Translations under genes and position numbers: made by a program
Shown: positions 8,721 to 34,103 of the stretch, one piece after another
Layout of the letters: every line of letters begins with the position of its first letter
How positions within the stretch are numbered: position 1 is the first letter of the stretch
Notes under the pieces: model-generated
The model's database searches: none
Told to the model about the DNA's origin: nothing
Seen by the model: the letters and a program-made list of their open reading frames with translations, nothing else
NCBI RefSeq assembly: GCF_947648125.1
Contig: NZ_CANSMR010000009.1
Coordinates: 124,001-188,000 of the forward strand
Direction: 5' to 3'
Length of the DNA stretch: 64,000 bases
Source of the DNA: an uncultured Bradyrhizobium sp.
GTDB taxonomy: Bacteria; Pseudomonadota; Alphaproteobacteria; Rhizobiales; Xanthobacteraceae

Positions 8721-9909
8721 ACAGCGCCCACCGGTGTCCCGCCGGAGATGGGGCATATTCGGCGTGGTTGCACTGGTCGGCGCGGGGCTGATCGTCGGCA
8801 CCGGCATCCGCGCCCGTGAGGAGCAGGACAACCGGCTGAAGGAATGGACCGATGACCAGGCCATTCCGACGGTCGCCGTGGCGCTGCCCAACGCCAAGGC
8901 GCTGAGCCCCACGATCGACCTGCCGGGCCGGCTCGAAGCTTATTCCCGCGCGCCGATCTATGCCCGGGTGTCCGGCTATCTCAAGAACTGGGACGCCGAC
9001 ATCGGTGCTCGCGTCAAGACCGGCCAGGTAATCGCCGAGATCGAGGCGCCCGACCTCGACCAGCAATTGCTGCAGGCGCGCGCCGATCTCGCCAGCGCCC
9101 AGGCCTCGGCCAAGCTCTCCGAAGCCACGCTGAACCGGCGCAAGACGCTGGTCGCCTCGAACTTCGTCTCCGCCCAGGAAATCGACGAGCGCACCGCCGA
9201 CCTCTCCAACAAGAACGGTGCGGTCAGGGCCGGCCAGGCCAATGTCGAGCGGCTGGAAGCGCTCGCCGGCTACAAGAAGATCACGGCGCCGTTCGATGGC
9301 GTGGTGACCTCGCGCGACACCGACGTCGGCGCGCTGATCAACGCCGGCGGTAACTCGGGTCCCGCGATGTTCACGATCTCGGACATCACCAAGCTGCGCG
9401 TCTACGTCAACGTGCCGCAGAACTACGTCCCGGCGATCAAGATCGGCGCCAAGGCCTCGTTGGTATTGCCGGATTACCCGAACCGCAGCTTCCAGGCGAC
9501 GGTGGAAGCTTCCTCGCAGGCCGTCGATGTCGCGTCCGGCACGACGCGGATGCAGCTCGGGCTCGACAATTCCTCCGGCGAGCTGATGCCGGGCAGCTAT
9601 GCCAGCGTGAAGCTGAACTTGCAGCGCGAGGCCGCGCCGCTCAGCATTCCCGCCAGCGCGCTGATCTTCAACAGCAGCGGCCTGCGGGTCGCAACTGTCA
9701 GCCCCGATGACAAGGTGCTGTTCAAGACCGTGAAGATCGGCCGCGACCTCGGCAAGGAGATCGAGATCGCCTCGGGCCTCGCCCCCGACGACCGCATCAT
9801 CACCGCCCCGCCGGACGGACTCGCCGACGGCGATCATGTCCGCGTCACCGGCGCCGGCGCCAAGGGCAAGCCGACGACGGCGTCGGAAAAGCAGGATGCG
9901 AAGGGGTAG
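8707..9909 (+). CDS. RND efflux periplasmic adaptor (membrane fusion protein)
   Basis: A 400-residue HlyD/AcrA-type adaptor that links the permease to an outer-membrane channel. After a positively charged start comes one membrane anchor (about residues 17-36) with no lipobox cysteine. Next are the barrel-sandwich half (RAPIYARVSGYL; later KKITAPFDGVVTSR), a helical hairpin (about 105-180), a beta-barrel and a membrane-proximal domain. I chose the ATG at 8707 because the N-terminus is then a normal signal anchor. It overlaps the permease gene by 14 nt, so the two are coupled. The tail is rich in Lys and Gly. The order permease then adaptor is the reverse of acrAB. Confidence 0.92.
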   Translation: MQPTEQRPPVSRRRWGIFGVVALVGAGLIVGTGIRAREEQDNRLKEWTDDQAIPTVAVALPNAKALSPTIDLPGRLEAYSRAPIYARVSGYLKNWDADIGARVKTGQVIAEIEAPDLDQQLLQARADLASAQASAKLSEATLNRRKTLVASNFVSAQEIDERTADLSNKNGAVRAGQANVERLEALAGYKKITAPFDGVVTSRDTDVGALINAGGNSGPAMFTISDITKLRVYVNVPQNYVPAIKIGAKASLVLPDYPNRSFQATVEASSQAVDVASGTTRMQLGLDNSSGELMPGSYASVKLNLQREAAPLSIPASALIFNSSGLRVATVSPDDKVLFKTVKIGRDLGKEIEIASGLAPDDRIITAPPDGLADGDHVRVTGAGAKGKPTTASEKQDAKG

Positions 9910-11535: not shown

Positions 11536-11581
11536 TCTTGTTGCTTCACTCTGCGGTATTGGGCTCGGTGGTTGTTCTAGC

Positions 11582-11666
11582 CGTCATTGCGAGCGAAGCG
11601 AAGCAATCCATATCTCGACTCGGGGAAAGCTGGATTGCTTCGTCGCGTTGCTCCTCGCAACGACGG
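11582..11666. repeat. Palindromic intergenic repeat (CGTCATTGCGAGCGAAGC type)
   Basis: The left arm CGTCATTGCGAGCGAAGC with GAAGCAATCCA is mirrored by a right arm TGGATTGCTTCG ending CTCGCAACGACG, around a roughly 25-nt centre. It occupies most of the 142-nt gap between the thiolase-like and nitronate monooxygenase genes, which are both on the minus strand. Confidence 0.75.
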
Positions 11667-11677
11667 TGGTGCGTTGC

Positions 11678-12811
11678 TTACTCCGCCACCAGCGCGTTCA
11701 TGTGCTCGACGGCTTCGACAAAATCTTCCTTGAATTCCTGCACCACGGCGCCCGCCGACTTCACGCTGTCGACCAGGCCGACACCCTGACCGACGAAGTA
11801 GCTGACGAGATCGCGCGCCTTCTCGTTGCCGGCGGCAGCGGCGCGGTCGATCGCGTTGAAGGCGTCGCGGCTGATGATGCTTTGCAGCGGCATCGGCAGC
11901 GCGCCGGGGCTATCCGGCGAGCGGTCCCAGGCGTCGGTCCACACCGAACGGAGCTGCCGCGCCGGCTTGCCGGTGCGGCCCTTCGAGCGGATGGCGTCGC
12001 GCGAGGAGGCCGCGATCATCTTCTCGCGGAAGATCTCCGAGGTCTCCGACTCCACGGTGGCAAGCCACACCGAGCCGGTCCAGGCGCCGGCCGCGCCCAT
12101 CGCCATGCAGGCCGCCATCTGGCTGCCGGTCATGATGCCGCCGGCGGCGAGCACCGGCACGTCGCGGATCTTCCTGACCGCCTTGATCACCTCGGGCACC
12201 AGCACCATGGTCGAGACTTCGCCGCAATGGCCGCCGGCCTCGGTGCCCTGCGCGACGAGGATGTCGACGCCGGCCGCGACCTGGCGCAGTGCGTGCTCCT
12301 TGGAGCCGACCAGCGCCGCCACCGGCACGCCGTGCTTGCGGCCCATCTCGATCATCGCTTTCGGCGGCACGCCCAGCGCGTTCGCGATCAGCCTGATCGG
12401 ATGGCGGAACGAGACCTCGAGCAATTGCAGCGCCGTCTCGGCATCGAATGGCTGCGGCTGGTTGTCGGCGACACTCTGCGTCGTGAGCTCGATGTTGTAT
12501 TTCTTGAGGAGATTGCGGGTGAAATCGCGATGCTCCTGCGAAACGCGCTTTTCAAGGCTCTTCCACGTGACGTTCTTCTCACCCGCGGTCGAGATATTCT
12601 CGGGGATCAGCACGTCGATGCCGTAGGGCTTGCCGTCGACGTGATCGTCGATCCATTTCAATTCCTGCTCCAGCGTCTCCGGCAGATACCGGGTCGCGCC
12701 GAATACGCCGAAGCCGCCGGCGCGGCTGACCGCCGCCACAACGTCGCGGCAATGGCTGAAAGCGAGCAGGGGGAATTCAATTCCCAACATGTCGCAGATC
12801 GGTGATTTCAT
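11678..12811 (-). CDS. Nitronate monooxygenase family protein (2-nitropropane dioxygenase-like)
   Basis: A 377-residue FMN-dependent TIM-barrel enzyme that oxidises alkyl nitronates such as propionate 3-nitronate. Visible family parts are the N-terminal LLAFSHCRDVVAAVSRAGGFG (residues 14 on), the phosphate-binding loop VPVLAAGGIMTG (about 210-222) and the VAQGTEAGGHCGE stretch just before it. The ATG at 12811 has a GGGAGA ribosome site 8 nt upstream, so longer frames towards 13018 are not used. It is divergent from yghU across a 278-nt region. The family also contains enzymes acting on CoA-bound or unknown substrates, so the substrate is not certain. Confidence 0.88.
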   Translation of the reverse strand: MKSPICDMLGIEFPLLAFSHCRDVVAAVSRAGGFGVFGATRYLPETLEQELKWIDDHVDGKPYGIDVLIPENISTAGEKNVTWKSLEKRVSQEHRDFTRNLLKKYNIELTTQSVADNQPQPFDAETALQLLEVSFRHPIRLIANALGVPPKAMIEMGRKHGVPVAALVGSKEHALRQVAAGVDILVAQGTEAGGHCGEVSTMVLVPEVIKAVRKIRDVPVLAAGGIMTGSQMAACMAMGAAGAWTGSVWLATVESETSEIFREKMIAASSRDAIRSKGRTGKPARQLRSVWTDAWDRSPDSPGALPMPLQSIISRDAFNAIDRAAAAGNEKARDLVSYFVGQGVGLVDSVKSAGAVVQEFKEDFVEAVEHMNALVAE

Positions 12812-13089
12812 GGACTGGTTTTCTCCCGGCAGCCGTTTTTTGTGCTTGTTGGCATCAGGCTTCCGCGACGCTAGCGCATCATGGATGGTCAAGCCAAGCT
12901 GGTTTCCACTGCGGCGATCTTGCGTGCAGGCGCTGCTCTGGCAGCATCCCTCGCGACGCATTCCGCAAGGTAGAAAATGCGAGAACACAGGCTGGGCAAA
13001 GCCGAGCGCGCCCACCATCTAGTGCGGACGTGCGGATGGGCACGGCGGTCGCCGCCCCACCTTGGAAACGTAAACCGGGAGCCAACGAC

Positions 13090-13968
13090 GTGACTGACAC
13101 CTCTGACTACGAGCCTCCGAAAGTCTGGACCTGGAACAAGGAGAGCGGCGGGCGCTTCGCCAGCATCAACCGGCCGATCGCCGGTCCAACCCATGACAAG
13201 GAACTGCCGGTCGGCCGCCATCCGCTGCAACTTTACTCGCTGGCGACGCCGAACGGCGTCAAGGTTACCGTGATGCTGGAAGAGCTGCTCGCGGCGGGCC
13301 ACAAGGGTGCGGAATACGACGCCTGGCTGATCAAGATCGACGGCAACCAGTTCGGCAGCGGCTTCGTTGCGGTCAATCCGAATTCGAAGATCCCGGCGCT
13401 GATGGACCGCAGCGGACCGGAGCCGATCAGGGTGTTCGAGTCGGGCTCGATCCTGGTCTACCTCGCGGAAAAGTTCGGTGCGTTCCTGCCGACCGACGTC
13501 AAGACCCGCGCGGAAACCTTCTCCTGGTTGTTCTGGCAGATGGGCTCGGCGCCGTATCTCGGCGGCGGCTTCGGGCATTTCTATGCCTATGCGCCGACCA
13601 AGATCGAATACGCGATCGATCGCTTTGCGATGGAGGTGAAGCGCCAGCTCGACGTGCTCGACCGCAGGCTCGCCGACAACGAATATCTCGCCGGCGACGT
13701 CTACACCATCGCCGACATGGCGGTGTGGCCCTGGTACGGCGGTCTGGCCAAGGGGCTGCTTTATGGCGGCGGTGAATTCCTGTCGGTGCAGGACTACAAG
13801 AACGTGCAGCGCTGGACCGACGCGATCGCAGCACGGCCCGCGGTGAAGCGCGGCCGCATGGTCAACCGCACCTGGGGCGAGCCGTCGAGCCAGCTCCATG
13901 AGCGCCACGATGCCAGCGATTTCGAAACGAAGACGCAGGACAAGATCGGCGAGCCGGCGGCGTCGTAG
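13090..13968 (+). CDS. yghU: Glutathione-dependent disulfide-bond oxidoreductase YghU
   Basis: A 292-residue glutathione S-transferase-fold enzyme of the Nu class; E. coli YghU is 288 residues and matches nearly end to end. It has the YghU start (PPKVWTWNKESGGRFASINR), a thioredoxin-fold half with the TPNGVKVTVMLEELL helix and FVAVNPNSKIPAL, the GSH-contact FESGSILVYLAEKFG, then the all-helical half ending LHERHDASDFETKTQDK. It reduces small disulfides and organic hydroperoxides with two bound glutathiones. The GTG at 13090 was chosen because GGGAG lies 8 nt before it and the protein then starts where YghU does. It is monocistronic and divergent from the nitronate monooxygenase gene. Confidence 0.95.
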   Translation: MTDTSDYEPPKVWTWNKESGGRFASINRPIAGPTHDKELPVGRHPLQLYSLATPNGVKVTVMLEELLAAGHKGAEYDAWLIKIDGNQFGSGFVAVNPNSKIPALMDRSGPEPIRVFESGSILVYLAEKFGAFLPTDVKTRAETFSWLFWQMGSAPYLGGGFGHFYAYAPTKIEYAIDRFAMEVKRQLDVLDRRLADNEYLAGDVYTIADMAVWPWYGGLAKGLLYGGGEFLSVQDYKNVQRWTDAIAARPAVKRGRMVNRTWGEPSSQLHERHDASDFETKTQDKIGEPAAS

Positions 13969-13980
13969 CTGTACGGCTTT

Positions 13981-14084
13981 GTAGGGCGGATTAGCTGCGT
14001 AGGGCGGATTAGCCGAAGGCGTAATCCGCCATCGTGCGCGGGCAGATCGGCGGGTTACGCTGCGCTAACCCGCCCTACGCATCC
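13981..14084. repeat. Palindromic intergenic repeat (GTAGGGCGGATTAGC type)
   Basis: GTAGGGCGGATTAGC occurs twice in tandem, then GGCGTAATCCGCC, and near the end CGGGTTACGCTGCGC and AACCCGCCCTACGC as the inverse. It fills the gap between convergent yghU and the acetyltransferase gene. A sister copy is at 15012-15092. Confidence 0.75.
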
Positions 14085-14089
14085 GCGTT

Positions 14090-14365
14090 TCACCCCAACA
14101 AATCGTCGTACTCCGGATGCTTCTTCATGAAGCCCTGGATGAACTCGCATTTTACGACGAGCTTGATGTTCTGCGCGCGGACGGCGTCGAGTGTCGCGCG
14201 AGCGAGCTTCGAGCCGACGCCGCGGCCGCCGAGCTCCGGCGGCACCACGGTATGCACAAGCGTGATCGTATCCGGCGTCTTGCGGTAGACCACGAAGGCG
14301 GTGGTGCCATCGACGTCAAGTTCGAACCGGCTCTGTGCCGGGTTGTCGCGGAATGCTTCACTCAT
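14090..14365 (-). CDS. Small GNAT-type N-acetyltransferase (YjdJ/NATD1-like)
   Basis: A 91-residue protein of the minimal acetyltransferase family (COG2388, human NATD1/Gtlf3b-like). It has a short beta region with FVVYRKTPDTITLVHTVVP, the acetyl-CoA phosphate loop ELGGRGVGSKLARATLDAVR (about residues 43-62) and a C-terminal KHPEYDDLL typical of the family. It is half the size of ordinary GNAT enzymes, which is normal for this group. It sits 13 nt after the flavin reductase gene and is probably co-transcribed with it. The acyl acceptor is unknown. Confidence 0.85.
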   Translation of the reverse strand: MSEAFRDNPAQSRFELDVDGTTAFVVYRKTPDTITLVHTVVPPELGGRGVGSKLARATLDAVRAQNIKLVVKCEFIQGFMKKHPEYDDLLG

Positions 14366-14378
14366 TCGGTCGTCCTCG

Positions 14379-14996
14379 TTACGTGTTCTTCACACCTTCG
14401 GCCGCGGGAAACACCACGCGGTCGTCGGTGCGGCAGTAGCGGTCGGCGAACATACGGCCGATCGGGTGGTAACGCTCCATGTGGACGCGCATCGCATCAC
14501 GGTCCCACAATTCGTCGCGGATGTGGAAGTGGATGCCTTCGCCCATGATCAGCTGGCGATCGCCGTTGACGTCGATCAGCTTCCAGGTCTTGCACTCCAT
14601 CGCGAACGGCGCGTCGGCGAGCCGGGGCACCGCGATCTTGCTGGAGGGCGCGAGCTTCAGGCCGAGATAGCCGGGCTCGCCGATCTCGGGCGGGAAATCG
14701 CCCGAGGTCTCGTGCATCGGGCGCGCCAGCGGCTCGTCGGTGAGATTGACCACGAACTCGCCCAGGTGCTGGATATTGACCAGCGTGTCCTTCTCGCGGC
14801 CGTCCGGCCGTCGGTTGACCGCGAACATGCAGAGCGGCGGGTCCTCGCAGAACACGTTGAAGAACGAGAACGGCGCCGCGTTGACCACGCCGTCTGCGCC
14901 GAGGCTCGTCACCCAGGCGATCGGCCGCGGCAGCACGAAGGAGGTCAGCACCTTGTAGCGTTCGCGCTGGCTGAGGTCGCTTGGGGAATATTCCAT
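14379..14996 (-). CDS. Flavin reductase family protein (FMN-binding split barrel)
   Basis: A 205-residue flavoprotein of the DIM6/NTAB type. Visible features are RPIAWVTSLGADGVVNAAPFSFFN (about residues 25-48), the usual FMN-contact segment after the first strands, and DTLVNIQHLGEFVVNL (about 70-86). Members reduce FMN with NAD(P)H for a partner monooxygenase or have no known role. No flavin-dependent oxygenase partner is in the same operon; the nitronate monooxygenase 2 kb away uses bound FMN and does not need one. It is followed by the small acetyltransferase gene. Its own upstream region holds a palindromic repeat. Confidence 0.88.
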   Translation of the reverse strand: MEYSPSDLSQRERYKVLTSFVLPRPIAWVTSLGADGVVNAAPFSFFNVFCEDPPLCMFAVNRRPDGREKDTLVNIQHLGEFVVNLTDEPLARPMHETSGDFPPEIGEPGYLGLKLAPSSKIAVPRLADAPFAMECKTWKLIDVNGDRQLIMGEGIHFHIRDELWDRDAMRVHMERYHPIGRMFADRYCRTDDRVVFPAAEGVKNT

Positions 14997-15142: not shown

Positions 15143-16417
15143 CTAGGTCATGCTCAATTCGTGGCGGCCGACCACCATCCAGTGCACCTCGTCCGGACCG
15201 TCGGCGAAGCGCAGATGGCGGACGTCCTGGTACATTTCGCCGAGCGGCGACCACTGCGAGATGCCGGTGGCGCCGTGCATCTGGATCGCCTGGTCGATCA
15301 CCTTGCAAGCGCGCTCGGGCACCATGGCCTTGACCATCGAGACCCAGACGCGGGCTTCCTTGTTGCCGAGCACGTCCATCGCCTTGGCCGCCTTCAACAC
15401 CATCAGGCGCATCGCTTCGATCTCGCAGCGGGCTTGGGCGATGATCTGCATGTTGCCGCCGAGATGGGCGATCTTCTTGCCGAACGCTTCGCGGGTGAGG
15501 CCGCGCTGCACCATCATGTCGAGCGCCTTCTCGGCCTTGCCGATGGTGCGCATGCAGTGATGGATACGGCCCGGTCCGAGGCGGACCTGCGAGATCTCGA
15601 AGCCGCGGCCTTCACCGAGCAGCATGTTCTCCTTCGGCACCTTCACATTGTTGAAGCGCAGATGCATGTGGCCGCGCGGTGCGTGATCATGGCCGAACAC
15701 GTGCATCGGGCCGAGGATCTCGACGCCGGGGGTGTCGATCGGCACCAGGATCTGCGACTGCTGCTTGCTCGGCGCCGCGTCGGGATTGGTCTTCACCATC
15801 ACGATCATGATCTTGCAGCGCGGATCGCCGGCGCCGGAGATGTAATACTTCTCGCCGTTGATCACCCACTCGTCGCCGACCAGCTTTGCGGTGGTCGAGA
15901 TGTTCTTGGCGTCGGAGGAGGCGACGTTCGGCTCTGTCATCGCATAGGCCGAGCGGATCTCGCCGTTGAGCAGCGGCTTCAGCCACTTCTCCTTCTGCGC
16001 CTTGGTGCCGACGCGCTCCAGAACTTCCATGTTGCCGGTGTCGGGGGCCGAGCAGTTCATGGTCTCGGAGGCCAGCGGGCTCTTGCCGAGCTCGGCGGCG
16101 ATGTAGGCGTAGTCGAGGTTGTTGAGGCCGTCGCCGGTTTCGGCGTCGGGCAGGAAGAAGTTCCAGAGACCGACTTCCTTGGCCTTGTCCTTGGCCTTCT
16201 GCAGGATCGCGAGCTGCTCGTCCGTGAAGCTCCAGCGGTTGGTCTTCTTCTCGCCGGCGCGATAGAACTCGACCGACATCGGGTCGACTGTGTCGCGGAT
16301 GAATTGCTTCACATGGTCGTACAGCGGGCGCACCTTGTCCGACATGCGGAGGTCGTTGAGCTCGTCGCCCGGATTGAGCGTGTAGTTCGTGGTGCGCGGC
16401 ACATAGGCATGCTTCAT
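15143..16417 (-). CDS. ACAD10/11-like acyl-CoA dehydrogenase family protein (LvaC-type candidate)
   Basis: A 424-residue flavoprotein with the acyl-CoA dehydrogenase fold: N-terminal helices (to about 150), beta domain with YAMTEPNVASSDA, and C-terminal helices with the FAD/dimer helix. It closely resembles the dehydrogenase half of human ACAD11, above all LGEGRGFEISQVRLGPGRIH and the ending RFADGPDEVHW. In classical members the base is a Glu in an E-G-T motif; here that position reads Asp406 (A-D-G-P). ACAD11 and bacterial LvaC eliminate phosphate from 4-phosphoacyl-CoA. The matching kinase lies 2.6 kb away. The ATG at 16417 follows GGGAGAAA at the right distance. Role in phosphate elimination is inference. 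Confidence 0.85.
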   Translation of the reverse strand: MKHAYVPRTTNYTLNPGDELNDLRMSDKVRPLYDHVKQFIRDTVDPMSVEFYRAGEKKTNRWSFTDEQLAILQKAKDKAKEVGLWNFFLPDAETGDGLNNLDYAYIAAELGKSPLASETMNCSAPDTGNMEVLERVGTKAQKEKWLKPLLNGEIRSAYAMTEPNVASSDAKNISTTAKLVGDEWVINGEKYYISGAGDPRCKIMIVMVKTNPDAAPSKQQSQILVPIDTPGVEILGPMHVFGHDHAPRGHMHLRFNNVKVPKENMLLGEGRGFEISQVRLGPGRIHHCMRTIGKAEKALDMMVQRGLTREAFGKKIAHLGGNMQIIAQARCEIEAMRLMVLKAAKAMDVLGNKEARVWVSMVKAMVPERACKVIDQAIQMHGATGISQWSPLGEMYQDVRHLRFADGPDEVHWMVVGRHELSMT

Positions 16418-16592
16418 TATCGTTTCTCCCGTGGCGAAGGCGTGTTTCGCGGCGGACAATAAACGCGTGCGACGCGAAGCGCGAGCACCGATTTTCCTGA
16501 TATCTCTACCGCATCGCGGAATATCACGACGGCGTTTCAAACGTTGTTTGAACGCCGCCGTGTACCGCGTGAAAGAGTCAGGCGGACGCCGG

Positions 16593-16970
16593 CTAGGTCA
16601 TCCGATGCATCGCGCAGATCTTGTTGCCGTCGAGGTCGCGCAAATAGGCGAGGTAGAGCTTGATGCCATTGCCCTCGCGCACGCCCGGCGGGTCCTCGCA
16701 GGTCTTGCCGCCATTGGCGATGCCGGCCGCGTGCCAGGCATGGACCTGCTCCGGCGAAGAGCAGGCAAAGCCGATCGTGCCGCCATTGGCGTGCGTCGCC
16801 GGTTCGCCGTTGATCGGCTTGGAAACCATGAAAATGCCGGCCTTGGTGAGGTACATAATGCGGTGACCGTCGACCCGGGCCGGCCGGACATCGAGCGTGC
16901 CGAGCAGCGCATCATAGAACGCCTTGGCCTTGTCCAGATCGTTGGTGCCAACCATCACGTGTGAAAACAT
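16593..16970 (-). CDS. VOC family protein (glyoxalase/bleomycin-resistance fold)
   Basis: A 125-residue single-module vicinal-oxygen-chelate protein. It starts with FSHVMVGTNDLDKAKAFYDALLG, the first beta-alpha unit with a metal-type His, and ends with YLRDLDGNKICAMHR. In many relatives the end reads D-P-D-G-N-x-I-E, and here the metal-ligand Glu position is Cys, so metal binding may be altered. The ATG at 16970 follows GGAGGATATTTC. It is on the same strand as the ACAD11-like gene with a 175-nt gap. The reaction cannot be predicted. Confidence 0.85.
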   Translation of the reverse strand: MFSHVMVGTNDLDKAKAFYDALLGTLDVRPARVDGHRIMYLTKAGIFMVSKPINGEPATHANGGTIGFACSSPEQVHAWHAAGIANGGKTCEDPPGVREGNGIKLYLAYLRDLDGNKICAMHRMT

Positions 16971-17114
16971 CTGAAATATCCTCCCTGCTTGTTGACGAAA
17001 GCCGCCTTGTTGCGTCCTTGCCGCTCGAACGCTTAGCAGCAGTTTTGCCGCGACGGAAGCGACGCTGCGTCGCGTGTGGCGTGGTGTGGCAACTTGAATC
17101 GAGGACCATCCCAT

Positions 17115-17236
17115 CGTCGTCCCGGCGCAGGCCGGGACCCATAACCACAAATGCCAACTGTTAGGTACCGCTGGAACGACGAGTCCCGTTCACTACAACT
17201 GCTGCGGCGTATGGGTCCCTGCTTTCGCAGGGACGA
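17115..17236. repeat. Family A intergenic repeat (CGTCGTCCC...GGGACGACG), copy 1
   Basis: The left arm CGTCGTCCCGGCGCAGGCCG (itself a small hairpin), then GGGACCCATAACCAC, is mirrored by a right arm TATGGGTCCCTGCTTTCGCA ending GGGACGAC. The two arms differ slightly. Located between two minus-strand genes. Confidence 0.85.
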
Positions 17237-17261
17237 CACCGGTGAAGCGGCAAGTGCGCGG

Positions 17262-18056
17262 CTAGAACGCCGTGTACCCGCCGTCGATCACGAAGCAATC
17301 CGCCGTATGATAGGACGACGCCTTGCTCATGAGGTAGACGGCGATGCCGCCGAAATCGCTCGGCTCGCCAAAGCGGCGTACCGGGATGCGCGGCATCACA
17401 TTGGCGACGAACTTGTCGTTGGCCATGATGCCGGCGGTCATGTCGCTCTTGATCCAGCCGGGCAGGATCGCATTTGCGGTGACGCCGTGGCGGGCAAGCT
17501 CGACGCCGAGCGCGCGGCACAGCGCGTTCAGCGCGGCCTTGGTGCCGGCATAGTGCTCGTTGCGTGCGGTGCCGAACAGCGAGGCGAGGCTCGAGGTTGC
17601 GACCAGCCGGCCGAACTTGTCGCCGGCCTCGGAGCGCTCGGTCATGTGGCGTGCCGCAGCCTGGAATACATGGAAGACGCCGTCGAGATTGGTCGCGAAC
17701 ATCTTGCGCCATTCCTCCTCGGTGCGGTCGATGAAGGAGCGGCGTCCGCCGCCGCCGATGCCGGCATTGGCGAAGCAGCCGTCGACGCGGCCGAAGGTGT
17801 CGAGCGTCGCCTTCATCGCGGTCTTGACCGAGCCGGGATCGGTGACGTCGCAGAATTGCGTCGCGACCTTGCCGGGCCCGGCCTTCATCGAGGCCGCGGC
17901 ATTGGCGTTTTTTTCCGCGTTGCGGCCCCAGATCGCGACGTTGCAGCCGGCGGCGTTGAGTGCCTGCGCGATGCCGAGGCCGATGCCGCCGTTGCCCCCG
18001 GTGATGACAGCGACGCGGCCGGTGAGATCGAAGATGCCACTCATTGGGGTTTCCAT
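17262..18056 (-). CDS. Short-chain dehydrogenase/reductase (SDR)
   Basis: A 264-residue classical SDR. The NAD(P)-binding TGGNGGIGLG motif is at about residues 18-27, NAG at about 95, and the catalytic Ser and Tyr-x-x-x-Lys appear as the SSLASLFGT stretch followed by HYAGTKAALN. The Rossmann strand 2 reads VAIWGRNAE, an Arg after the Gly that suggests NADP. Start could be the ATG at 18056 or 18044; neither has a clear ribosome site. It is divergent from the PaaG-like/kinase operon by 139 nt. In a levulinate-type pathway it could fill the LvaD step (reduction of a 4-oxoacyl-CoA); this is inference from position only. Confidence 0.88.
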   Translation of the reverse strand: METPMSGIFDLTGRVAVITGGNGGIGLGIAQALNAAGCNVAIWGRNAEKNANAAASMKAGPGKVATQFCDVTDPGSVKTAMKATLDTFGRVDGCFANAGIGGGGRRSFIDRTEEEWRKMFATNLDGVFHVFQAAARHMTERSEAGDKFGRLVATSSLASLFGTARNEHYAGTKAALNALCRALGVELARHGVTANAILPGWIKSDMTAGIMANDKFVANVMPRIPVRRFGEPSDFGGIAVYLMSKASSYHTADCFVIDGGYTAF

Positions 18057-18195
18057 TTGGTTTGGTGCGCGCTAATCACGCGTTCACGGATGGGCTTGCT
18101 GCCGACCATGGACAAGCCCGGCACAAAAATCAAATATGGGTCGAAGCATCGACCTACCGCGGTACCAACCGCCGAAGCAACGTAAAGAGGAAACC

Positions 18196-18990
18196 ATGCA
18201 GTTCAAGCACGTCACGCTCGACTTCGACGGATCGGTCGCGATCCTCAAACTCGACCATCAGGAAGTCATGAACGCTGTGTCGATCGACATGCTGGGCGGC
18301 CTTGCCGAGGCGCTCGATGCGATCGACGACAAGCGCGACGAGGTGCGCTGCCTGGTGATCACGGGCGCGGGCCGCGCCTTCTGCACCGGCGCCAATCTGC
18401 AGGGCCGCAACCAGCAGCAGAAGCCCGGCAAGAGCAACGCCGGCGCGGCGCTGGAGACCGCGTTCCATCCGTTCCTGCGCCGATTGCGTAAGCTGCACTG
18501 TCCGATCGTGACCGCGGTGAACGGGCCGGCTGCCGGTGCCGGCATGAGCTTCGCGTTGATGGGCGACCTCATCCTGTGCGCGCGCTCGTCCTATTTCCTG
18601 CAGGCGTTCCGCCGCATCGGCCTGGTGCCGGATTGCGGCTCGACCTGGCTGCTGCCGCGGCTGATCGGCAAGGCGCGTTCGGTCGAGCTGTCGCTGCTCG
18701 GCGAGCGGCTGCCGGCCGAGAAGGCGCTGGAATGGGGCCTCGTCAACCGCGTCTATGACGACGCCGCGCTGATGGAGGAGACCATGAAGCTGGCGCACGA
18801 TCTCGCCAACGGCCCGACCGTCGCGTTGTCGCTGATCCGCAAGCTCTATTGGGACAGCCCGGAGAATACCCTCGAGGATCAGCTCAATCTGGAATGCGAG
18901 TCGCAGCGCATTGCGGGCCGCGCCGAGGATTTCAAGGAAGGCGTCACCGCATTCCTCGAGAAGCGTCCGGCGAAGTTCAAGGGCAAATGA
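18196..18990 (+). CDS. Enoyl-CoA hydratase/isomerase family protein, PaaG-like
   Basis: A 264-residue crotonase-fold protein. The oxyanion-hole parts are present (GAGRAFCTGANLQGR; NGPAAGAGMSFALMGDLIL). The two catalytic Glu of true hydratases are missing: the first position is Ser (GAGMSFA) and the second Phe (LQAFRRIG). Instead the VPDCGSTWLLPRLIGKARS stretch matches PaaG, whose Asp in VPDxG is the isomerase base. So it is more likely a delta3-delta2 enoyl-CoA or epoxyphenylacetyl-CoA-type isomerase than a hydratase. AGAGGAAA precedes the ATG. Its TGA overlaps the kinase ATG (ATGA), so the two are tightly coupled, which argues for a shared pathway and against phenylacetate, whose other genes are absent. 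Confidence 0.87.
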   Translation: MQFKHVTLDFDGSVAILKLDHQEVMNAVSIDMLGGLAEALDAIDDKRDEVRCLVITGAGRAFCTGANLQGRNQQQKPGKSNAGAALETAFHPFLRRLRKLHCPIVTAVNGPAAGAGMSFALMGDLILCARSSYFLQAFRRIGLVPDCGSTWLLPRLIGKARSVELSLLGERLPAEKALEWGLVNRVYDDAALMEETMKLAHDLANGPTVALSLIRKLYWDSPENTLEDQLNLECESQRIAGRAEDFKEGVTAFLEKRPAKFKGK

Positions 18991-19973
18991 TCGAGACCGA
19001 GCTCAGGCGCTGCGTCGCCTCGTTTCATCCTGGCGCGACCGGCGTCACAGGCGCCGCGAAGCTCTCCGGCGGCGCCAGCCAGGAGACCTGGACGTTCGAC
19101 ATCGTGCACCCGAACGGCAATGTCGGCGCGATCCTGCGCCGCGCGCCGCCGGGCTACGGTGCGGCGCCCGGCCGCGCCGCCGGCCTCGAGGCCGAGGCGA
19201 CGCTGATGCAACTCGCGCATGACGCGGGCCTGCCGTCGCCGAAGGTGATGCATGTCCTGAGGCCGGAAGATGGCCTTGGTCGCGGCTTCATCATGGCGCG
19301 GGTCGAAGGCGAGACCATCGCGCGGAAAATTTTGCGTGACGAGGAATTTGCCAAGGCGCGGCCGATGCTGGCACGCCAGCTCGGCCGTGTCATCGCCGGC
19401 ATTCATGGCCTGCCGCAAGCAAAACTGCCGCAGCTGCGCGGCCTGACGGCGACCAAGGAGATCGAGGATCTCGCCCGTGAGTATCACAGCTTCAACTGGC
19501 CGCGGCCGGTGTTCGAGCTGGCGCTGCGGTGGCTGCGCGATCACGATCCCGGTCCGTCCTCGGAGGTGACGCTGGTGCATGGCGATTTCCGCCACGGCAA
19601 TCTGATCATCGGCCCCGACGGGGTGCGCGCGGTGCTCGACTGGGAGCTCGCGCATACCGGCGATCCCATGGAGGATCTCGGCTGGATTTGCGTCAATTCG
19701 TGGCGCTTCGGCGAGATCGACAAGCCGGTCGGCGGCTTCGGCTCCCGCGAGGATCTGTTCGCGGGTTACGCCGAGGCCGGCCGCAAGGTCGATCCTGATC
19801 GCGTGATGTTCTGGGAAGTGATGGGCACGCTGCGCTGGGGCGTGATGTGCTGCGGCATGATGCAGCGCTTCCGCCTGGGCCCCGATCACTCGATGGAGCG
19901 CGCGATGATCGGGCGGCGGGCGTCGGAGACCGAGATCGATCTGCTTAGGCTACTGGCACCGAGAGGCCGTTGA
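18987..19973 (+). CDS. Phosphotransferase family protein, ACAD11 kinase-like (LvaA-type candidate)
   Basis: A 328-residue kinase with the aminoglycoside phosphotransferase/choline kinase fold. The catalytic loop reads VHGDFRHGNLI (His198, Asp200, Asn205) and the metal-binding Asp is Asp218 in VLDWELAHTGDP. The glycine-rich start is LSGGASQETWTFD. This group is the stand-alone form of the N-terminal kinase of ACAD10/11, and Pseudomonas LvaA, which phosphorylates the 4-hydroxyl of 4-hydroxyacyl-CoA, belongs to it. It overlaps the PaaG-like gene by 4 nt and is followed after one base by the DUF6285 gene. It is often misread as an antibiotic resistance gene. The acyl-CoA substrate is inferred from family and context. 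Confidence 0.88.
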   Translation: MIETELRRCVASFHPGATGVTGAAKLSGGASQETWTFDIVHPNGNVGAILRRAPPGYGAAPGRAAGLEAEATLMQLAHDAGLPSPKVMHVLRPEDGLGRGFIMARVEGETIARKILRDEEFAKARPMLARQLGRVIAGIHGLPQAKLPQLRGLTATKEIEDLAREYHSFNWPRPVFELALRWLRDHDPGPSSEVTLVHGDFRHGNLIIGPDGVRAVLDWELAHTGDPMEDLGWICVNSWRFGEIDKPVGGFGSREDLFAGYAEAGRKVDPDRVMFWEVMGTLRWGVMCCGMMQRFRLGPDHSMERAMIGRRASETEIDLLRLLAPRGR

Positions 19974-19974
19974 G

Positions 19975-20352
19975 ATGCAGGACGAACCGACACCCACCGA
20001 ACTGATCAAGGCCGTCGCCGATTTCCTGCGCAACGAGATCGCACCCGCGATCAAGGGGCACAACAGCTTCAAGCTGCGCGTCGGCATCAACGCGCTCGAT
20101 CTGGTGACGCGGCAGCTCGCGCTTGCCGAGGTCGGCGATGCGACCGAGGCCGCGCGGCTGAAGGCGCTGCTCGACACGGATGGCACGCTGATGGAGCTGA
20201 ACCGCGCGCTGTCGGAGAAGATCGCAAGCGGCGAGGTCGACCTGGCAACGCCGGGGTTGCCTGAACATCTCTGGCAGACCACGATGGACAAGCTCGCGGT
20301 CGATCAGCCGAACTACGCGTCCTACAAGAGGGAACTGGGGAATAAGGTGTAG
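19975..20352 (+). CDS. DUF6285 protein, small partner of the kinase (LvaB-like by position)
   Basis: A 125-residue, mainly helical soluble protein with PTPTELIKAVADFLRNEI at the start, a central FKLRVGINALDLVTRQLAL helix and a C-terminal TTMDKLAVDQPNYASYKRE. It has no catalytic motif I can see. It starts one base after the kinase stop. Small proteins of this kind regularly follow ACAD11-type kinases. In the Pseudomonas levulinate operon the equivalent small protein LvaB is needed for kinase activity; I believe the families are the same, but this needs a profile comparison. It is convergent with the downstream hydratase gene, and a repeat lies in between. Confidence 0.8.
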   Translation: MQDEPTPTELIKAVADFLRNEIAPAIKGHNSFKLRVGINALDLVTRQLALAEVGDATEAARLKALLDTDGTLMELNRALSEKIASGEVDLATPGLPEHLWQTTMDKLAVDQPNYASYKRELGNKV

Positions 20353-20481: not shown

Positions 20482-21261
20482 TTACCGCCCCAGCCACTTC
20501 GGCGGACGCTTCTCCGAAAACGCCTTCGGGCCCTCGATGTAATCCTGCGAGGCGGCCATCGCCTTCACCGCCGGATACTCGCGCTGCTCGGCCAGCGCCT
20601 GCTCCAGCGAGACTTCGAGGCCCTTCTGGATCGCTTGCTTGGAGGCACGGATCGACATCGGCGAGTTCTTGGCGATGGTCTCGGCCCAGCGCTCGGCGGC
20701 CGCCAGCGCCTCGCCCTGCGGCACCACCTCATTGACGAAGCCGAGCTCGAGGCCCTCCTTGGCGCTGACATGGCGCGCGGTCAGGATCATGCCCATGGCG
20801 CGCTTCAGCCCGATCTGGCGCGGCAAGCGGTGGACTCCGCCAGCGAGTGCCGCAAGGCCGACGCGCGGCTCGGGCAGGGCGAAGGTGGCATTTTCGGAGG
20901 CGATGATCAGGTCGCAGGCCAGCGCGATTTCGAACCCGCCGCCCATTGCGACGCCATTGACGGCGGCGATGATCGGCTTGTCGCAGTCGAAGCGGCTGGT
21001 CAGCCCGGCAAAGCCGCCCTTGTCCCAGCCGCGCTTGCCGCCGGCCGCCTGCCATTTCAGGTCGTTGCCGGCGCAGAACGCCTTGTCGCCGGCGCCGGTG
21101 ACGATCGCGACCCACTGCTCGGGGTCGGCGGAGAAGTCGTCGAACACCTTGTTGAGCTCGAAATGCGCGTCGATATGCAGCGCGTTGTAAACCTCGGGCC
21201 GCGACAGCGTCACGATGGTGATGGGACCCTTGCGCGTCACCTTGGAGAATTTCAGATCCAT
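20482..21261 (-). CDS. Enoyl-CoA hydratase (crotonase family)
   Basis: A 259-residue crotonase with both catalytic Glu present: the first in VAMGGGFEIALACD and the second in FALPEPRVGL. The first oxyanion loop is DKAFCAGNDLKW. It should therefore hydrate trans-2-enoyl-CoA. The LAGGVHRLPRQIG stretch also occurs in carnitinyl-CoA dehydratase-like members, so a specialised enoyl substrate is possible. It ends with FSEKRPPKWLGR, as is common in the family. It is divergent from the acyl-CoA dehydrogenase gene across 220 nt, which probably holds both promoters. Step 2 of beta-oxidation, cytoplasmic. Confidence 0.9.
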   Translation of the reverse strand: MDLKFSKVTRKGPITIVTLSRPEVYNALHIDAHFELNKVFDDFSADPEQWVAIVTGAGDKAFCAGNDLKWQAAGGKRGWDKGGFAGLTSRFDCDKPIIAAVNGVAMGGGFEIALACDLIIASENATFALPEPRVGLAALAGGVHRLPRQIGLKRAMGMILTARHVSAKEGLELGFVNEVVPQGEALAAAERWAETIAKNSPMSIRASKQAIQKGLEVSLEQALAEQREYPAVKAMAASQDYIEGPKAFSEKRPPKWLGR

Positions 21262-21481
21262 GTTTGCTCCCGTCGATTTTCTGCGGCGAAGAATATGGCT
21301 GATATCCTACCGCCTGCACCTCGTTCCGCGCCATCCAATTACGCAACGCCACCGCGCGCGCAAGCCTCATCGGCCTGCTTGACTTGGCGGCGTGCTTCTC
21401 ACCTTAATCGATCCGAACGCGGCTACGCGATAGCGTCTAAACGCAAAACCAGAATCAACAATATCTTCGGGAGTGACCGCC

Positions 21482-22756
21482 TTGGATTTCAATCTACCGG
21501 CTGACCTGACAGCCTATCTCGCCGAGCTCGATCGCTTCATCGAACGCGAGGTCAAGCCGCTGGAAGCGGCTGGCGACAACATCCGCTTCTTCGATCATCG
21601 CCGCGAATGGGCGCGCACCGATTTCGACAAGGGCGGCCTGCCACGCCATGAATGGGAATTGCTGCTGCGCAAGGTCAAGAACCTGGCGGATGCCGCCGGC
21701 CACCTGCGCTTCGCGATCCCGAAGCGTTACGGCGGCAAGGACGGCTCCAATCTCTGGATGGCTGTGATCCGCGAACACTTTGCCTCGAAAGGTCTCGGCC
21801 TGCACAACGATCTGCAGAACGAGCATTCGATCGTCGGCAATCTTCCGCTGGTCACCATGCTCGATCGCTATGGAACCGACGAGCAGAAGGCGATGATCGA
21901 CGGCTCGATCACGGGCAAGTACCGCATCACGTTTGGTCTTACGGAGCCCGAGCACGGCTCCGACGCCACGCACATGGAGACCAAGGCGGTGCAGGCGACC
22001 CGCGACAACGTCAAGGGCTGGATCATCAACGGCGAGAAGATGTGGACGACAGGCATGCATGTCGCGACCCACTGCGCGCTGTTTGCCCGCACCTCCGGCA
22101 ATGACGGCGACGCGCGCGGCATCAGCTGCTTCCTGGTGCCGGCGAAATCGCCGGGCGTGAAGGTCGAGGAGTATATGTGGACCTTCAACATGCCGACCGA
22201 TCATCCGCGGGTCAGCTTCACCGACGTGTTCGTGCCTGAGAATGCGCAGTTCGGCGAGGTCGGCCGCGGCCTGTCGCTGGCGCAATGTTTTGTCCATGAG
22301 AACCGCATCCGTCAGGCGGCAAGCTCGCTCGGCGCTGCGGTCTATTGCATTAATGAAAGTGTGAAGTATGCGCGCGAGCGAAAACCGTTCGGCAAGGCGC
22401 TGGCCGAGAACCAGGCGATCCAGTGGCCGCTGGTCGAGCTTGCGACCCAGGCCGAGATGCTGCGGCTGTTGATCCGCAAGACGGCGTGGGAGATGGATCA
22501 ACTGACCCAGGCGCAGGTCGAGCACACGTTGTCGGACCGGGTCTCGATGTGCAATTTCTGGGCAAACCGGCTGTGCTGCGAGGCCGCCGACCGCGCGATG
22601 CAGGTGCATGGCGGCATGGGTTATTCGCGGCACAAGCCGTTCGAGCACATCTACCGCCACCATCGCCGCTATCGCATCACCGAAGGCAGCGAGGAAATCC
22701 AGAAGCGCAAGGTGGCGGGCTTCCTGTTCGGCTACATGGGCGCCGGCAAGCACTGA
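21482..22756 (+). CDS. Acyl-CoA dehydrogenase
   Basis: A 424-residue flavoenzyme. It has the N-terminal helical domain, the beta domain with ITFGLTEPEHGSDATHME, the quinone/ETF-facing C-terminal helices and QVHGGMGYSRHKPFEHIYR. The catalytic base is present as Glu401 in RITEGSEEIQ, unlike the ACAD11-like gene at 15143. It therefore probably makes the 2,3 double bond in an acyl-CoA and passes electrons to ETF. The start is a choice between GTG at 21473 and TTG at 21482. I prefer the TTG because CGGGAG lies 8 nt before it, whereas it overlaps the GTG. A formaldehyde-activating-type gene follows 27 nt later. Confidence 0.9.
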   Translation: MDFNLPADLTAYLAELDRFIEREVKPLEAAGDNIRFFDHRREWARTDFDKGGLPRHEWELLLRKVKNLADAAGHLRFAIPKRYGGKDGSNLWMAVIREHFASKGLGLHNDLQNEHSIVGNLPLVTMLDRYGTDEQKAMIDGSITGKYRITFGLTEPEHGSDATHMETKAVQATRDNVKGWIINGEKMWTTGMHVATHCALFARTSGNDGDARGISCFLVPAKSPGVKVEEYMWTFNMPTDHPRVSFTDVFVPENAQFGEVGRGLSLAQCFVHENRIRQAASSLGAAVYCINESVKYARERKPFGKALAENQAIQWPLVELATQAEMLRLLIRKTAWEMDQLTQAQVEHTLSDRVSMCNFWANRLCCEAADRAMQVHGGMGYSRHKPFEHIYRHHRRYRITEGSEEIQKRKVAGFLFGYMGAGKH

Positions 22757-22783: not shown

Positions 22784-23257
22784 ATGGAAGGCGGATGCAC
22801 CTGCGGAAACGTCCGCTACCGCCTCACCGGCGGGCCGCTGATCGTGCACGCCTGTCACTGCACCTGGTGCCAGCGCGAGACCGGCACCGTGCATGCGCTC
22901 AACGCGATGTACGAGGTCGAGCGGGTCGCGCACATCGCGGCCGAGCCCGAGATCGTCGACACGCCGTCGGCGAGCGGCAAGGGGCAGAAGATCGCCCGCT
23001 GCCCGCGCTGCAAGGTCGCGGTGTGGAGCAACTATCCCGGCGCGGGACCGGCGGTGCGCTTCGTCCGCGTCGGCACGCTGGATGATCCGGGCCAGTGCCC
23101 GCCTGACGTCCACATCTTCACCTCGTCCAAACAGCCCTGGGTGACGTTCCCGCCCGGAGCGAAGGTGTTCGCGGAGTATTACGATCGGAAGGAGGTCTGG
23201 CCGAATGAGGCGCAGGAGCGTTGGCGTCTTCTCCGGGAGAAGATGAAGAAGACTTGA
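22784..23257 (+). CDS. GFA family zinc protein (glutathione-dependent formaldehyde-activating/CENP-V-like)
   Basis: A 157-residue zinc-binding Mss4-like fold protein. It shows the GFA cysteine pattern GGCTCGNVRYRLTG, ACHCTWCQRETG (about residues 4-34) and a later CPRCKV pair (about 74-79). Most members have unknown activity; the name comes from glutathione-formaldehyde adduct formation in Paracoccus, and few members do this. It follows the acyl-CoA dehydrogenase gene by 27 nt with GAGGGGG upstream, so they are probably one transcript. It is convergent with the CoA-ligase gene. No formaldehyde dehydrogenase is nearby, so a role in C1 metabolism is not supported. Confidence 0.85.
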   Translation: MEGGCTCGNVRYRLTGGPLIVHACHCTWCQRETGTVHALNAMYEVERVAHIAAEPEIVDTPSASGKGQKIARCPRCKVAVWSNYPGAGPAVRFVRVGTLDDPGQCPPDVHIFTSSKQPWVTFPPGAKVFAEYYDRKEVWPNEAQERWRLLREKMKKT

Positions 23258-23399: not shown

Positions 23400-24980
23400 C
23401 TAGTTCACCTGCCGGTCCTTCCCCACCCAGTACGGATCGCGCAAATTTCGTCGCAAAATCTTGCCCGACGGGTTGCGCGGCAGCGCCGGGATGAAGTCGA
23501 CCGATTTGGGCGTCTTGAATCCCGCGATCCGCTCGCGGGTGAAGTTAATGATGTCGGTCGCCGTCGCGCTCTTGCCCGGCTTCATTACGACCACCGCCTT
23601 CACCGCCTCGCCCCATTTGTCGTCGGGGATGCCGATCACTGCGGCTTCCGCCACGTCCGGGTGGTCGCAGAGCGCGCTCTCGACTTCGGCCGGATAGATG
23701 TTCTCGCCGCCGGAGATGATCATGTCCTTGATGCGGTCGTGGATGTAGAGATAGCCGTCACTGTCCATGTAGCCGGCATCGCCGGTGCGCAGCCAGCCGT
23801 CGCTATCGATGGTGCGCGCGGTGGCCTCGGGCAAATTCCAGTAGCCGGCCATGTTGGAGCCGGAGCGGGTGGCGATCTCGCCGACTTCGCCCGGCGGCAG
23901 CGGCTTGCCATCCGGATCGAGGATCGCAAGCTCGATGCCGGGCAGCGCCTTGCCGGCGGAGCGCATGCGGTCGAGCCCCTCGATGTGATCCTCCGGCGGC
24001 AGCGCGACGATGGTGCCGGTGGTCTCGGTCATGCCGTACATCTGCACGAAGCCGCATTTGAAGACCTCGATGCACTCCTTCAGCAGCGCCGCCGGGATCG
24101 GTGAGGCGCCGTAAAGCATGTATTTCAGGCGCGAGAAGTCGACCTGCCGCGCGCGGGGCTGCCGCACCACGAACTGCATCGCCGCCGGCACCATGAACAG
24201 CTTGGTGATGCCGGATTGCTCGAAGAAGTCGAGCACCTTGGTCGGGTCGAACTCGCGGGCGATCACGCCGCGGGCGCCGTGATAGAGCCCCATCACGCCC
24301 CAGCCGGAGCCGCCGATGTGGAAGATCGGCATCGCGACCAGCGAGACGTCGTCGGTGGTCCACCGGTTCCATTCCGGCTTCTCGGCCTCATTGCCGCTCT
24401 GCACGAGGTTGAGGAAGTTGGCGTGCGACAGCATCGCGCCCTTCGGCTTGCCCGTGGTGCCCGAGGTGTAGAGCTGGATCGCGATGTCCTTGGGCTCGAT
24501 CGCAACGCGCGGGTCGTCGCCGCTCTGCGCGTCGCGCCAGGCGAGATAGTCGGGCCATTCCGGCGCGCCGCCCTCGGTCGTGATGACGGTGCGGACGCTC
24601 GGCAGCTTGTCCCTGATGTTGCGCGCTTGCGTGATGAATTCGGGGCCGACGAACAGGGCGGGCGCCTTGCAGTCGTCGACGATGAAGGCGACCTCGGGGC
24701 CTGCGAGGCGCCAGTTCACCGGCGCCATCACCACGCCTGCCTTCATCGCCCCCATCAACAATTCGAAATAGAAGTCGCTGTTCTTGCCGAGATAGGCGAT
24801 CCGCTCGCCTTTCTTGATGCCCATCGCGATCAGCGCGTTGGCGACGCGGTTGGTGTTCGTGTCGAATTCGGCGAAGCTGGTTTGCCGGCCCTCGAACTCA
24901 TAGGCCAGCGCATCGCCGCGACCGTTAGCGCGGTCGCGCACCATGTCGGCAAGGTTGCTCAGTTTCGGCGCGTCGGACAT
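23400..24980 (-). CDS. Acyl-CoA synthetase (AMP-forming, ANL superfamily)
   Basis: A 526-residue adenylate-forming CoA ligase. It has the P-loop YTSGTTGKPKGAMLSH (about residues 165-180), the YGMTETTG A5 motif, GWLRTGDAGYMDSDGYLYIHDR (A7/A8, hinge) and the catalytic Lys near the end in LPRNPSGKILRRNLR. It activates a carboxylic acid to acyl-AMP and then acyl-CoA. The ATG at 24980 is preceded by CGGGGGAAAC. Chain length is not predictable; similarity to fatty-acid and bile-acid-type ligases is comparable. Together with the second ligase at 27152 it could feed the surrounding acyl-CoA enzymes, including the LvaE-like step. Confidence 0.9.
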   Translation of the reverse strand: MSDAPKLSNLADMVRDRANGRGDALAYEFEGRQTSFAEFDTNTNRVANALIAMGIKKGERIAYLGKNSDFYFELLMGAMKAGVVMAPVNWRLAGPEVAFIVDDCKAPALFVGPEFITQARNIRDKLPSVRTVITTEGGAPEWPDYLAWRDAQSGDDPRVAIEPKDIAIQLYTSGTTGKPKGAMLSHANFLNLVQSGNEAEKPEWNRWTTDDVSLVAMPIFHIGGSGWGVMGLYHGARGVIAREFDPTKVLDFFEQSGITKLFMVPAAMQFVVRQPRARQVDFSRLKYMLYGASPIPAALLKECIEVFKCGFVQMYGMTETTGTIVALPPEDHIEGLDRMRSAGKALPGIELAILDPDGKPLPPGEVGEIATRSGSNMAGYWNLPEATARTIDSDGWLRTGDAGYMDSDGYLYIHDRIKDMIISGGENIYPAEVESALCDHPDVAEAAVIGIPDDKWGEAVKAVVVMKPGKSATATDIINFTRERIAGFKTPKSVDFIPALPRNPSGKILRRNLRDPYWVGKDRQVN

Positions 24981-25074
24981 GTTTCCCCCGGGACGTCTTG
25001 TTTTGGTTGCGCGGAGTGTGGCGGCATCGCGCGGGAAAAACAATACGGGGGAGGTGGCCGCGACGTTTCAACAT

Positions 25075-34053: not shown

Positions 34054-34103
34054 GTGGGTTCTCCTTGTTGCTGTGTGTCCGCAGGCCGATGCAGAGCCCC
34101 ACT

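Follow-up and report, generated by a model that had tools for sequence, protein, structure and literature searches.

Described systems and the Bradyrhizobium locus

The closest described relatives of the system treated here are the levulinate (lva) operon of Pseudomonas putida and the mammalian enzymes ACAD10 and ACAD11 with their split bacterial homologues. The lva genes span PP_2790 (LvaR) to PP_2797 (LvaG). According to excerpts of PMC6692424, LvaB (12 kDa) interacts with LvaA, LvaAB phosphorylates 4-hydroxyvaleryl-CoA, and lvaA, lvaB and lvaC mutants of P. putida show no growth on levulinate. For ACAD10, excerpts of PMC11342911 propose that C2 proton loss and hydride transfer to FAD give 4-phospho-2-enoyl-CoA, after which phosphate loss gives 2,4-dienoyl-CoA and return of the hydride gives 2-enoyl-CoA. 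The locus compared with these systems lies in a 64,000-nucleotide stretch of an uncultured Bradyrhizobium sp. (contig NZ_CANSMR010000009.1), referred to as the window. It encodes an APH-fold kinase, a small protein of the domain of unknown function DUF6285 and several acyl-CoA enzymes.

The window kinase belongs, as judged from sequence, to a clade that is sister to the LvaA-type kinases, with no more than a distant relationship to the ACAD11 kinase. Its constant companion in other genomes is ACAD2, an acyl-CoA dehydrogenase with an ordinary catalytic Glu; the ACAD11-like dehydrogenase of the locus is less constant. The genes, their families, the active-site residues, the co-occurrence and the gene fusions reported below are observed. 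They may reflect an LvaAB-like hydroxyacyl-CoA kinase that feeds beta-oxidation; ACAD2 would be obligatory, and phosphate elimination would probably fall to the ACAD11-type enzyme. We put the chances of this reading at about even. The four genes at the center of the argument are:

15143-16417, minus strand: ACAD10/11-kind acyl-CoA dehydrogenase (Pfam N-terminal, middle and C-terminal acyl-CoA dehydrogenase domains; 396 bits to ACAD11; Arg, HCMR and Asp residues; tree)
18987-19973, plus strand: LvaA-type APH-fold kinase, clade KIN-A (PF01636 (APH), 121.6 bits; tree; catalytic Asp and Asn)
19975-20352, plus strand: DUF6285 protein, LvaB family, predicted kinase partner (PF19802, 106 bits, cut-off 28.1)
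21473-22756, plus strand: ACAD2, acyl-CoA dehydrogenase with ordinary catalytic Glu (Pfam; co-occurrence; residues)

The kinase

In BLAST comparisons the window kinase scored 140-156 bits (32-35% identity) against the lva-type kinases of two Pseudomonadaceae operons. It scored 47 bits against the ACAD11 kinase, 63 bits against the best solved structure (3dxp) and at most 28.5 bits against macrolide kinases, so that, as had been predicted, it is nearer to the lva-type and ACAD11 kinases than to the macrolide kinases. A tree of 75 rows, ACAD11 among them, was built from 159 kinases that were thinned by similarity and then cut at 75. It places the window kinase in a clade of 14 members, KIN-A (support 99/95), the sister group of which consists of 52 LvaA-like kinases (86/65). 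Both groups together are supported at 100/98 and stand apart from ACAD11 and the kinases typified by one on contig C27 of the same genome (100/100). The catalytic Asp and Asn are conserved in 158 of the 158 bacterial kinases aligned (58 + 92 + 8). Low-end bit scores do not split the kinase clades: the kinase of genome G087, in KIN-A and with ACAD2, scores 189 bits, less than that of G016, which has no ACAD2 (193 bits). G087, G214 and G250 were therefore counted as KIN-A by the tree and by ACAD2 adjacency.

The original prediction had called the kinase ACAD11/LvaA-type. Its kinship to LvaA holds in the sister-clade sense, and an ACAD11-type identity was rejected on the tree and on the 47 bits, to be compared with 247 bits to ACAD11 for the C27 kinase. 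That kinase is of the ACAD10/11 type and adjoins an HCMR dehydrogenase (L137, G000:C27:14000-31000, 7094-9621); by sequence the two form a known split 4-hydroxy-acid pair, on a different contig from the window. The genome has a further cluster (L138, G000:C3:366000-382000) of an APH kinase, ligase, crotonase, short-chain dehydrogenase/reductase (SDR) and dehydrogenase, the kinase of which forms a long branch in neither clade.

In other genomes the neighbors of the kinase include recG (9 family or locus labels), a DUF502 protein gene (8) and a thiolase with an SCP-x-like C-terminal domain (6). The count for a TRCF-type helicase in the same list probably comes from RecG cross-matches, and frames antisense to the kinase or ACAD2 were ignored. 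The kinase stands near recG and the DUF502 gene in many members of the class (L323-L326, L329, L330, L338, L340, L343, L344, L347). This adjacency reads as an inherited chromosomal position more than as a sign of function.

DUF6285 and the LvaB family

An lva-type kinase alignment searched against named genomes found 396 relatives, of which 80 were kept and five loci inspected. Two of these, both from P. putida (L155 and L168), contain genes for a PrpR-like regulator, kinase, 118-residue protein, dehydrogenase, SDR, ligase, DUF485 protein and acetate symporter. In the other three (one of them P. putida, L188) a histidine phosphatase gene follows the small gene. The 118-residue proteins that occupy the lvaB position in P. 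putida KH-21-134 and 31753 match PF19802 with 72.2 and 76.1 bits (cut-off 28.1), and their equivalents in L188 and in an Azotobacter plasmid (L152) match with 62.0 and 73.5 bits, making four of four tested. As had been predicted, DUF6285 is, at the level of sequence families, the LvaB family; the link to LvaB of strain KT2440, which is absent from the loci examined, is by gene order and organism.

A DUF6285 gene between the kinase and histidine phosphatase genes was seen in lva-like clusters of Stutzerimonas and Pseudomonas (L055, L188, L190, L179). For a similar cluster of P. citronellolis no lvaB homologue is reported in the excerpted text of PMC6692424, where the ORF (open reading frame) numbers jump from 0390 to 0393 at that place and numbers are skipped elsewhere in the cluster too. 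A DUF6285 gene was possibly overlooked there.

DUF6285 is encoded directly 3' of the kinase gene, or fused to it, in 54 of the 54 KIN-A loci examined (19 phylum-sample genomes and 35 of 44 further class genomes), and this adjacency is thus not due to chance. Kinase and DUF6285 form a single ORF in L045, L046 and L047 of the KIN-A branch and in L043 of the LvaA-like branch. As these fusions occur in both kinase branches, fusion must have happened at least twice. The 8.57 Mb genome of the window has a single DUF6285 match.

The ACAD11-kind dehydrogenase

The enzyme encoded at 15143-16417 was expected to be strongly ACAD11-like, and it is: it scores 396 bits to ACAD11 (8v3u) and 366 bits to 4hr3, a relative of unnamed function, and the next solved structure scores 142 bits. 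In mouse ACAD11 the key residues are R626, H634, R637 and D753, common to LvaC; the HCMR motif is essential and D753 is catalytic (excerpts of PMC12440821). The window enzyme has the equivalents of all four, as an upstream Arg, the HCMR motif and the catalytic Asp. The upstream Arg and the Asp are present in all 152 HCMR proteins, a set selected on HCMR alone from 154 ACAD11- or LvaC-like proteins. By its residues the enzyme is predicted to be of the phosphate-eliminating type.

A dehydrogenase tree of 70 rows was cut from 206 proteins, some of which are one gene in two loci, and the program warns of long branches. The window enzyme falls into a subclade of 17 (100/100) inside a clade of 29 (100/99), to which the C27-type dehydrogenases belong as well; ACAD11 itself is no row of this tree, and the name ACAD10/11 clade rests on the 396-bit match. 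The LvaC clade (16 rows) and ACAD2 (25 rows) fall outside this clade. Identity of the enzyme with LvaC was rejected, on the tree and on its 31-32% identity to LvaC-type proteins. The protein in the LvaC place of L168 (7963-9132) scores 200 bits to ACAD11, half the score of the window enzyme; the identities of 62% and 56% between LvaC and ACAD10/11 given in excerpts of PMC11342911 are at odds with this score.

Like the window, the lva operon of P. putida has an APH-fold kinase followed directly by an LvaB-family protein, with an acyl-CoA ligase, an SDR and an HCMR-type dehydrogenase in the neighborhood. The window differs from it in that its kinase belongs to the sister clade and its dehydrogenase to another clade and to the opposite strand, with two crotonases and ACAD2 added. 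The original prediction had read the locus as a split, rearranged form of the levulinate (LvaABCDE) pathway. Its LvaB family and LvaA kinship stood, and the dehydrogenase has the ACAD11/LvaC residues. The rearranged lva operon did not, because the dehydrogenase groups apart from the LvaC clade and the kinase lies in the sister clade rather than among ACAD11-type kinases. A split levulinate pathway is now improbable: the kinase and DUF6285 are of the LvaAB kind and an SDR and CoA ligases, generic family matches in comparison with LvaD and LvaE, lie nearby, but the dehydrogenase is not of the LvaC clade, and the SDR is just 32-35% identical to the SDRs of two lva-type plasmid operons (L055 and L152). 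Moreover, no homologue of LvaR, LvaF or LvaG, and no lva regulator or transporter, was seen among the 28 of the 54 window gene calls that were scanned against Pfam.

ACAD2 tracks the kinase

In a phylum sample of 299 genomes, 26 have DUF6285, and the kinase was searched in those 26 only. It scores at least 240 bits in 16 of them and 189-228 bits in G087, G214 and G250, which are KIN-A by the tree; seven more score 130-193 bits. ACAD2 (E <= 1e-140) is present in 19 of the 299 genomes, and these are exactly the 16 + 3 KIN-A genomes. Five of the seven low-score genomes were examined in 19 kb regions (L040-L044), and a dehydrogenase with HCMR and Asp adjoins the kinase in four of them, with none there in L044. 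A class sample of 385 genomes gave a kinase match (E <= 1e-35) in 87. The match is at least 240 bits in 49, and all 49 have ACAD2; 44 of these kinase and ACAD2 genomes are new relative to the phylum sample. Among the 38 with a kinase below 240 bits, ACAD2 was found in two (G087 and G299). In the same 385 genomes, ACAD2 without a kinase match occurs in G410 (98% complete), G583 (83%) and G587 (86%). Shared ancestry of the genomes inflates all such co-occurrence counts.

ACAD2 lies on another contig or far from the kinase in 6 of 19 genomes, and the association is therefore not mere linkage. Where the two genes are close, their order and strand vary between families: the order is kinase-DUF6285-ACAD2 in G191, G543, G087, G214 and G250, ACAD2-kinase-DUF6285 in G408, G506 and G401, and ACAD2 is on the opposite strand in G259. 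Since both genes occupy seemingly inherited chromosomal places in several families, joint retention or loss may be as likely as joint transfer. Detached ACAD2 genes have a Suv3-type helicase and a ferredoxin-like gene as neighbors (3 labels each). Eight genomes of only 1.3-1.8 Mb (G340, G455, G546, G618, G315, G527, G602 and G345) keep kinase, DUF6285 and ACAD2, although their sole ACAD11-like match shares the genome with an ACAD10-type kinase. A plasmid of Sulfitobacter pontiacus (L049, 7415-14619) carries a one-strand row of ligase, kinase, DUF6285, ACAD2, crotonase, hydratase and thiolase genes, a convenient test system.

ACAD2 does not have an active site of the ACAD10/11 or LvaC type. The positions of the Arg, His, Cys and Arg are occupied by Phe, Gln, Ala and Ser in 51 of 51 rows, and the Asp is replaced by Glu in 50 of 51 rows, with a gap in one. 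ACAD2 has the domains and the catalytic Glu of ordinary acyl-CoA dehydrogenases such as CarC and MCAD; it differs from them in forming a distinct clade with invariant residues of its own that occurs, in the samples searched, almost only with this kinase.

These observations bear on a second reading, which we consider possible but doubtful. The unit would consist of kinase, DUF6285 and ACAD2, with the ACAD11-kind enzyme a mere neighbor, and would carry out an oxidative variant of the ACAD10/11 reaction. ACAD2, with Glu as the base, would oxidize the phosphorylated acyl-CoA and pass electrons to electron-transfer flavoprotein (ETF), phosphate would be lost as 2,4-dienoyl-CoA forms, and the isomerase and hydratases would handle this product. 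With ACAD2 oxidizing the phosphorylated or a precursor acyl-CoA, the strict tie (49/49, of which 44/44 outside the first sample, and 19/299 all among the 26 with DUF6285) is explained better than by an ACAD2 that performs a flanking step. Proximity in differing order and strand in several families and retention of the three genes in the eight small genomes also favor it, and excerpts of PMC11342911 already propose 4-phospho-2-enoyl and 2,4-dienoyl intermediates for ACAD10. But ACAD2 has Phe, Gln and Ser at the positions of R626, H634 and R637, with no sign of phosphorylated-chain binding in the 51 rows; co-occurrence is no proof that kinase and ACAD2 act on one molecule; and three genomes have ACAD2 with no kinase match. 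Only tentatively, then, might the three genes form a third, so far undescribed kinase-dependent acyl-CoA system beside LvaABC and ACAD10/11. If so, phosphorylation would be coupled to a Glu-type, ETF-linked dehydrogenase instead of a redox-neutral HCMR enzyme.

Distribution of the ACAD11-kind enzyme

Of the 299 phylum-sample genomes, 14 have an orthologue of the 15143-16417 enzyme at 70% identity or higher, and 13 of the 14 are kinase genomes; the remaining one, G193, carries no DUF6285 and no ACAD2. Among 160 class genomes, 11 have such an orthologue, and in 10 of these the kinase reaches 240 bits. The eleventh carrier, G422 (83% complete), is absent from the kinase matches, and a twelfth match, in G083, is 59% identical to the window enzyme, with no DUF6285 or ACAD2 match in that genome. 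Some match to the enzyme (E <= 1e-42) is found in 48 of 48 class genomes (the 44 kinase genomes and G299, G410, G583 and G587), at 50% identity or more in 46, and at 42% in G343 and 37% in G587. In G147 and G191 a single contig carries both the kinase and the ACAD11-kind gene, at distances of about 15 and 31 kb. The pairing of the kinase with this enzyme, as originally proposed, is thus a frequent association and not a constant one (13 of 19 kinase genomes), the constant companion being ACAD2.

The proposed pathway

Applying the ACAD10-type chemistry of PMC11342911 to the kinase pair and the HCMR enzyme, we infer the reactions, their order and the substrate as follows. The genes at 18987-20352 would encode a two-subunit LvaAB-like kinase, with DUF6285 as its structural partner. 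This kinase would transfer phosphate to the hydroxyl group of its substrate, a hydroxyacyl-CoA and most likely one of the 4-hydroxy kind. The phosphate would then be eliminated by a dehydrogenase with the Arg, HCMR and Asp residues, here probably the 15143-16417 enzyme, giving 2-enoyl-CoA for beta-oxidation. In genomes without the 15143-type enzyme, a resident ACAD10-type enzyme may serve as the eliminator. The ligases would perform activation, and ACAD2 and the crotonases, the PaaG-like isomerase included, other beta-oxidation steps on the same class of compounds, with ACAD2 presumably indispensable to the pathway. By analogy, the membership of DUF6285 in the LvaB family and the requirement for lvaA, lvaB and lvaC described in the excerpts of PMC6692424 argue for this pathway. 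The invariable kinase-DUF6285 association (54/54), the fusions in two branches, the residues of the ACAD11-kind enzyme, its carriers (13/14 and 10/11) and the 49/49 co-occurrence of ACAD2 support it further.

A number of observations weigh against it. First, R176, a modelled CoA contact in the ACAD11 kinase, is unconserved in KIN-A and LvaA-type kinases, and R86, the other modelled CoA-contact arginine, is without clear equivalent in a column that is inexactly placed in the kinase alignment; no sequence feature fixes the substrate. These points would fit a kinase whose substrate is not a hydroxyacyl-CoA but, for instance, a cofactor or a free alcohol. APH-fold kinases are diverse, and in many genomes this one stands among housekeeping genes. 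But the kinase is sister to LvaA and shares its kind of partner protein, and it has acyl-CoA genes as neighbors in the genus and family of the window, in G191 and in Sulfitobacter, which makes such a substrate unlikely.

Second, the ACAD11-kind enzyme and the kinase also occur apart. In the phylum sample 6 of 19 kinase genomes have no ACAD11-kind orthologue. G289, of the window's family, is without this enzyme and keeps the SDR, isomerase, kinase, DUF6285, second crotonase (ECH2) and ACAD2. Conversely, none of the eight 17-19 kb orthologue regions from outside the window's genus and its family (L054, L139-L145) contains a kinase of any of the three kinds. Third, 35 of 36 genomes, a chosen set of which 34 are kinase genomes, contain an ACAD10-type kinase as well (>300 bits; G343 is without it), and this could be the only kinase that the HCMR enzyme works with. 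In the window's genome the 15143-16417 enzyme has the active-site residues of ACAD10/ACAD11 and by far its best characterized match there; the kinase of the locus is of the DUF6285-partnered kind, and the genome's own ACAD10/11-type pair is separate, on C27. Finally, a role of ACAD2 in flanking steps leaves its strict tie to the kinase unexplained.

Surrounding genes

All genes named in the original prediction were found at their coordinates by an ORF check and a Pfam scan of the window. That prediction had passed over the VOC protein, the second crotonase and ACAD2. The other features are:

16593-16958, minus strand, start uncertain, possibly to 17081: VOC (glyoxalase-fold) protein (PF00903, 28.7 bits on 16593-17081)
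17262-18056, minus strand: SDR oxidoreductase (PF13561/PF00106)
18057-18195: divergent intergenic region, SDR gene to isomerase gene
18196-18990, plus strand: PaaG-like enoyl-CoA hydratase/isomerase, NCBIfam PRK05981 (ECH_1; NF004635, 499.6 bits, cut-off 351)
20482-21261, minus strand: crotonase-family hydratase ECH2 (PF00378, 212 bits; kept beside the module in genus and family)
22784-23257, plus strand: GFA-domain protein directly 3' of ACAD2 (PF04828, 95.7 bits)
23400-25043 (gene call: start 24980), minus strand: acyl-CoA ligase, PRK06187 subfamily (656 bits, cut-off 476)
27152-28696 (ORF opens 27050), plus strand: acyl-CoA ligase, PRK12406 subfamily (931 bits, cut-off 701)

The subfamily matches of the last two bear out the ligases expected at 23400 and 27152. 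The minus strand carries the dehydrogenase, VOC and SDR genes, the plus strand those for the isomerase, kinase and DUF6285; the two sets are therefore divergent and not one operon. As read in the sequence, the isomerase and kinase genes overlap by ATGA at 18987-18990, and one base separates the kinase gene from the DUF6285 start. The isomerase scores 279.9 bits to PaaG TIGR02280, under the cut-off of 345.15. The VOC start at 16958 is taken from a codon-bias gene call, and a VOC gene is also close to the dehydrogenase orthologue in Sulfitobacter sp. M368. The best named matches among plasmid records are from Sulfitobacter (kinase 49%, 15143-16417 dehydrogenase 72-74%). The surroundings resemble a catabolic island (window 10024-14996 and 31869-35354), with thiolase-like, nitronate monooxygenase, flavin reductase, SMP-30/gluconolactonase-like, SDR and SCP-x-like thiolase C-terminal-domain products.

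Implications

No description of the combination of KIN-A with this dehydrogenase clade, or of the kinase-DUF6285-ACAD2 association, was found in the literature searched. The families of the parts are known; the association and the clade combination appear to be new and suggest a form of the hydroxy-acid pathway that has not been described. A family match links DUF6285, a domain of unknown function, to LvaB, and separate fusions, at least two in number, link it to its kinase. The assignment of which dehydrogenase belongs with which kinase clade is corrected, and ACAD2 is singled out as an enzyme the presence of which tracks the kinase almost perfectly in the class samples. With these three genes, an uncharacterized route for hydroxylated acids becomes directly testable.

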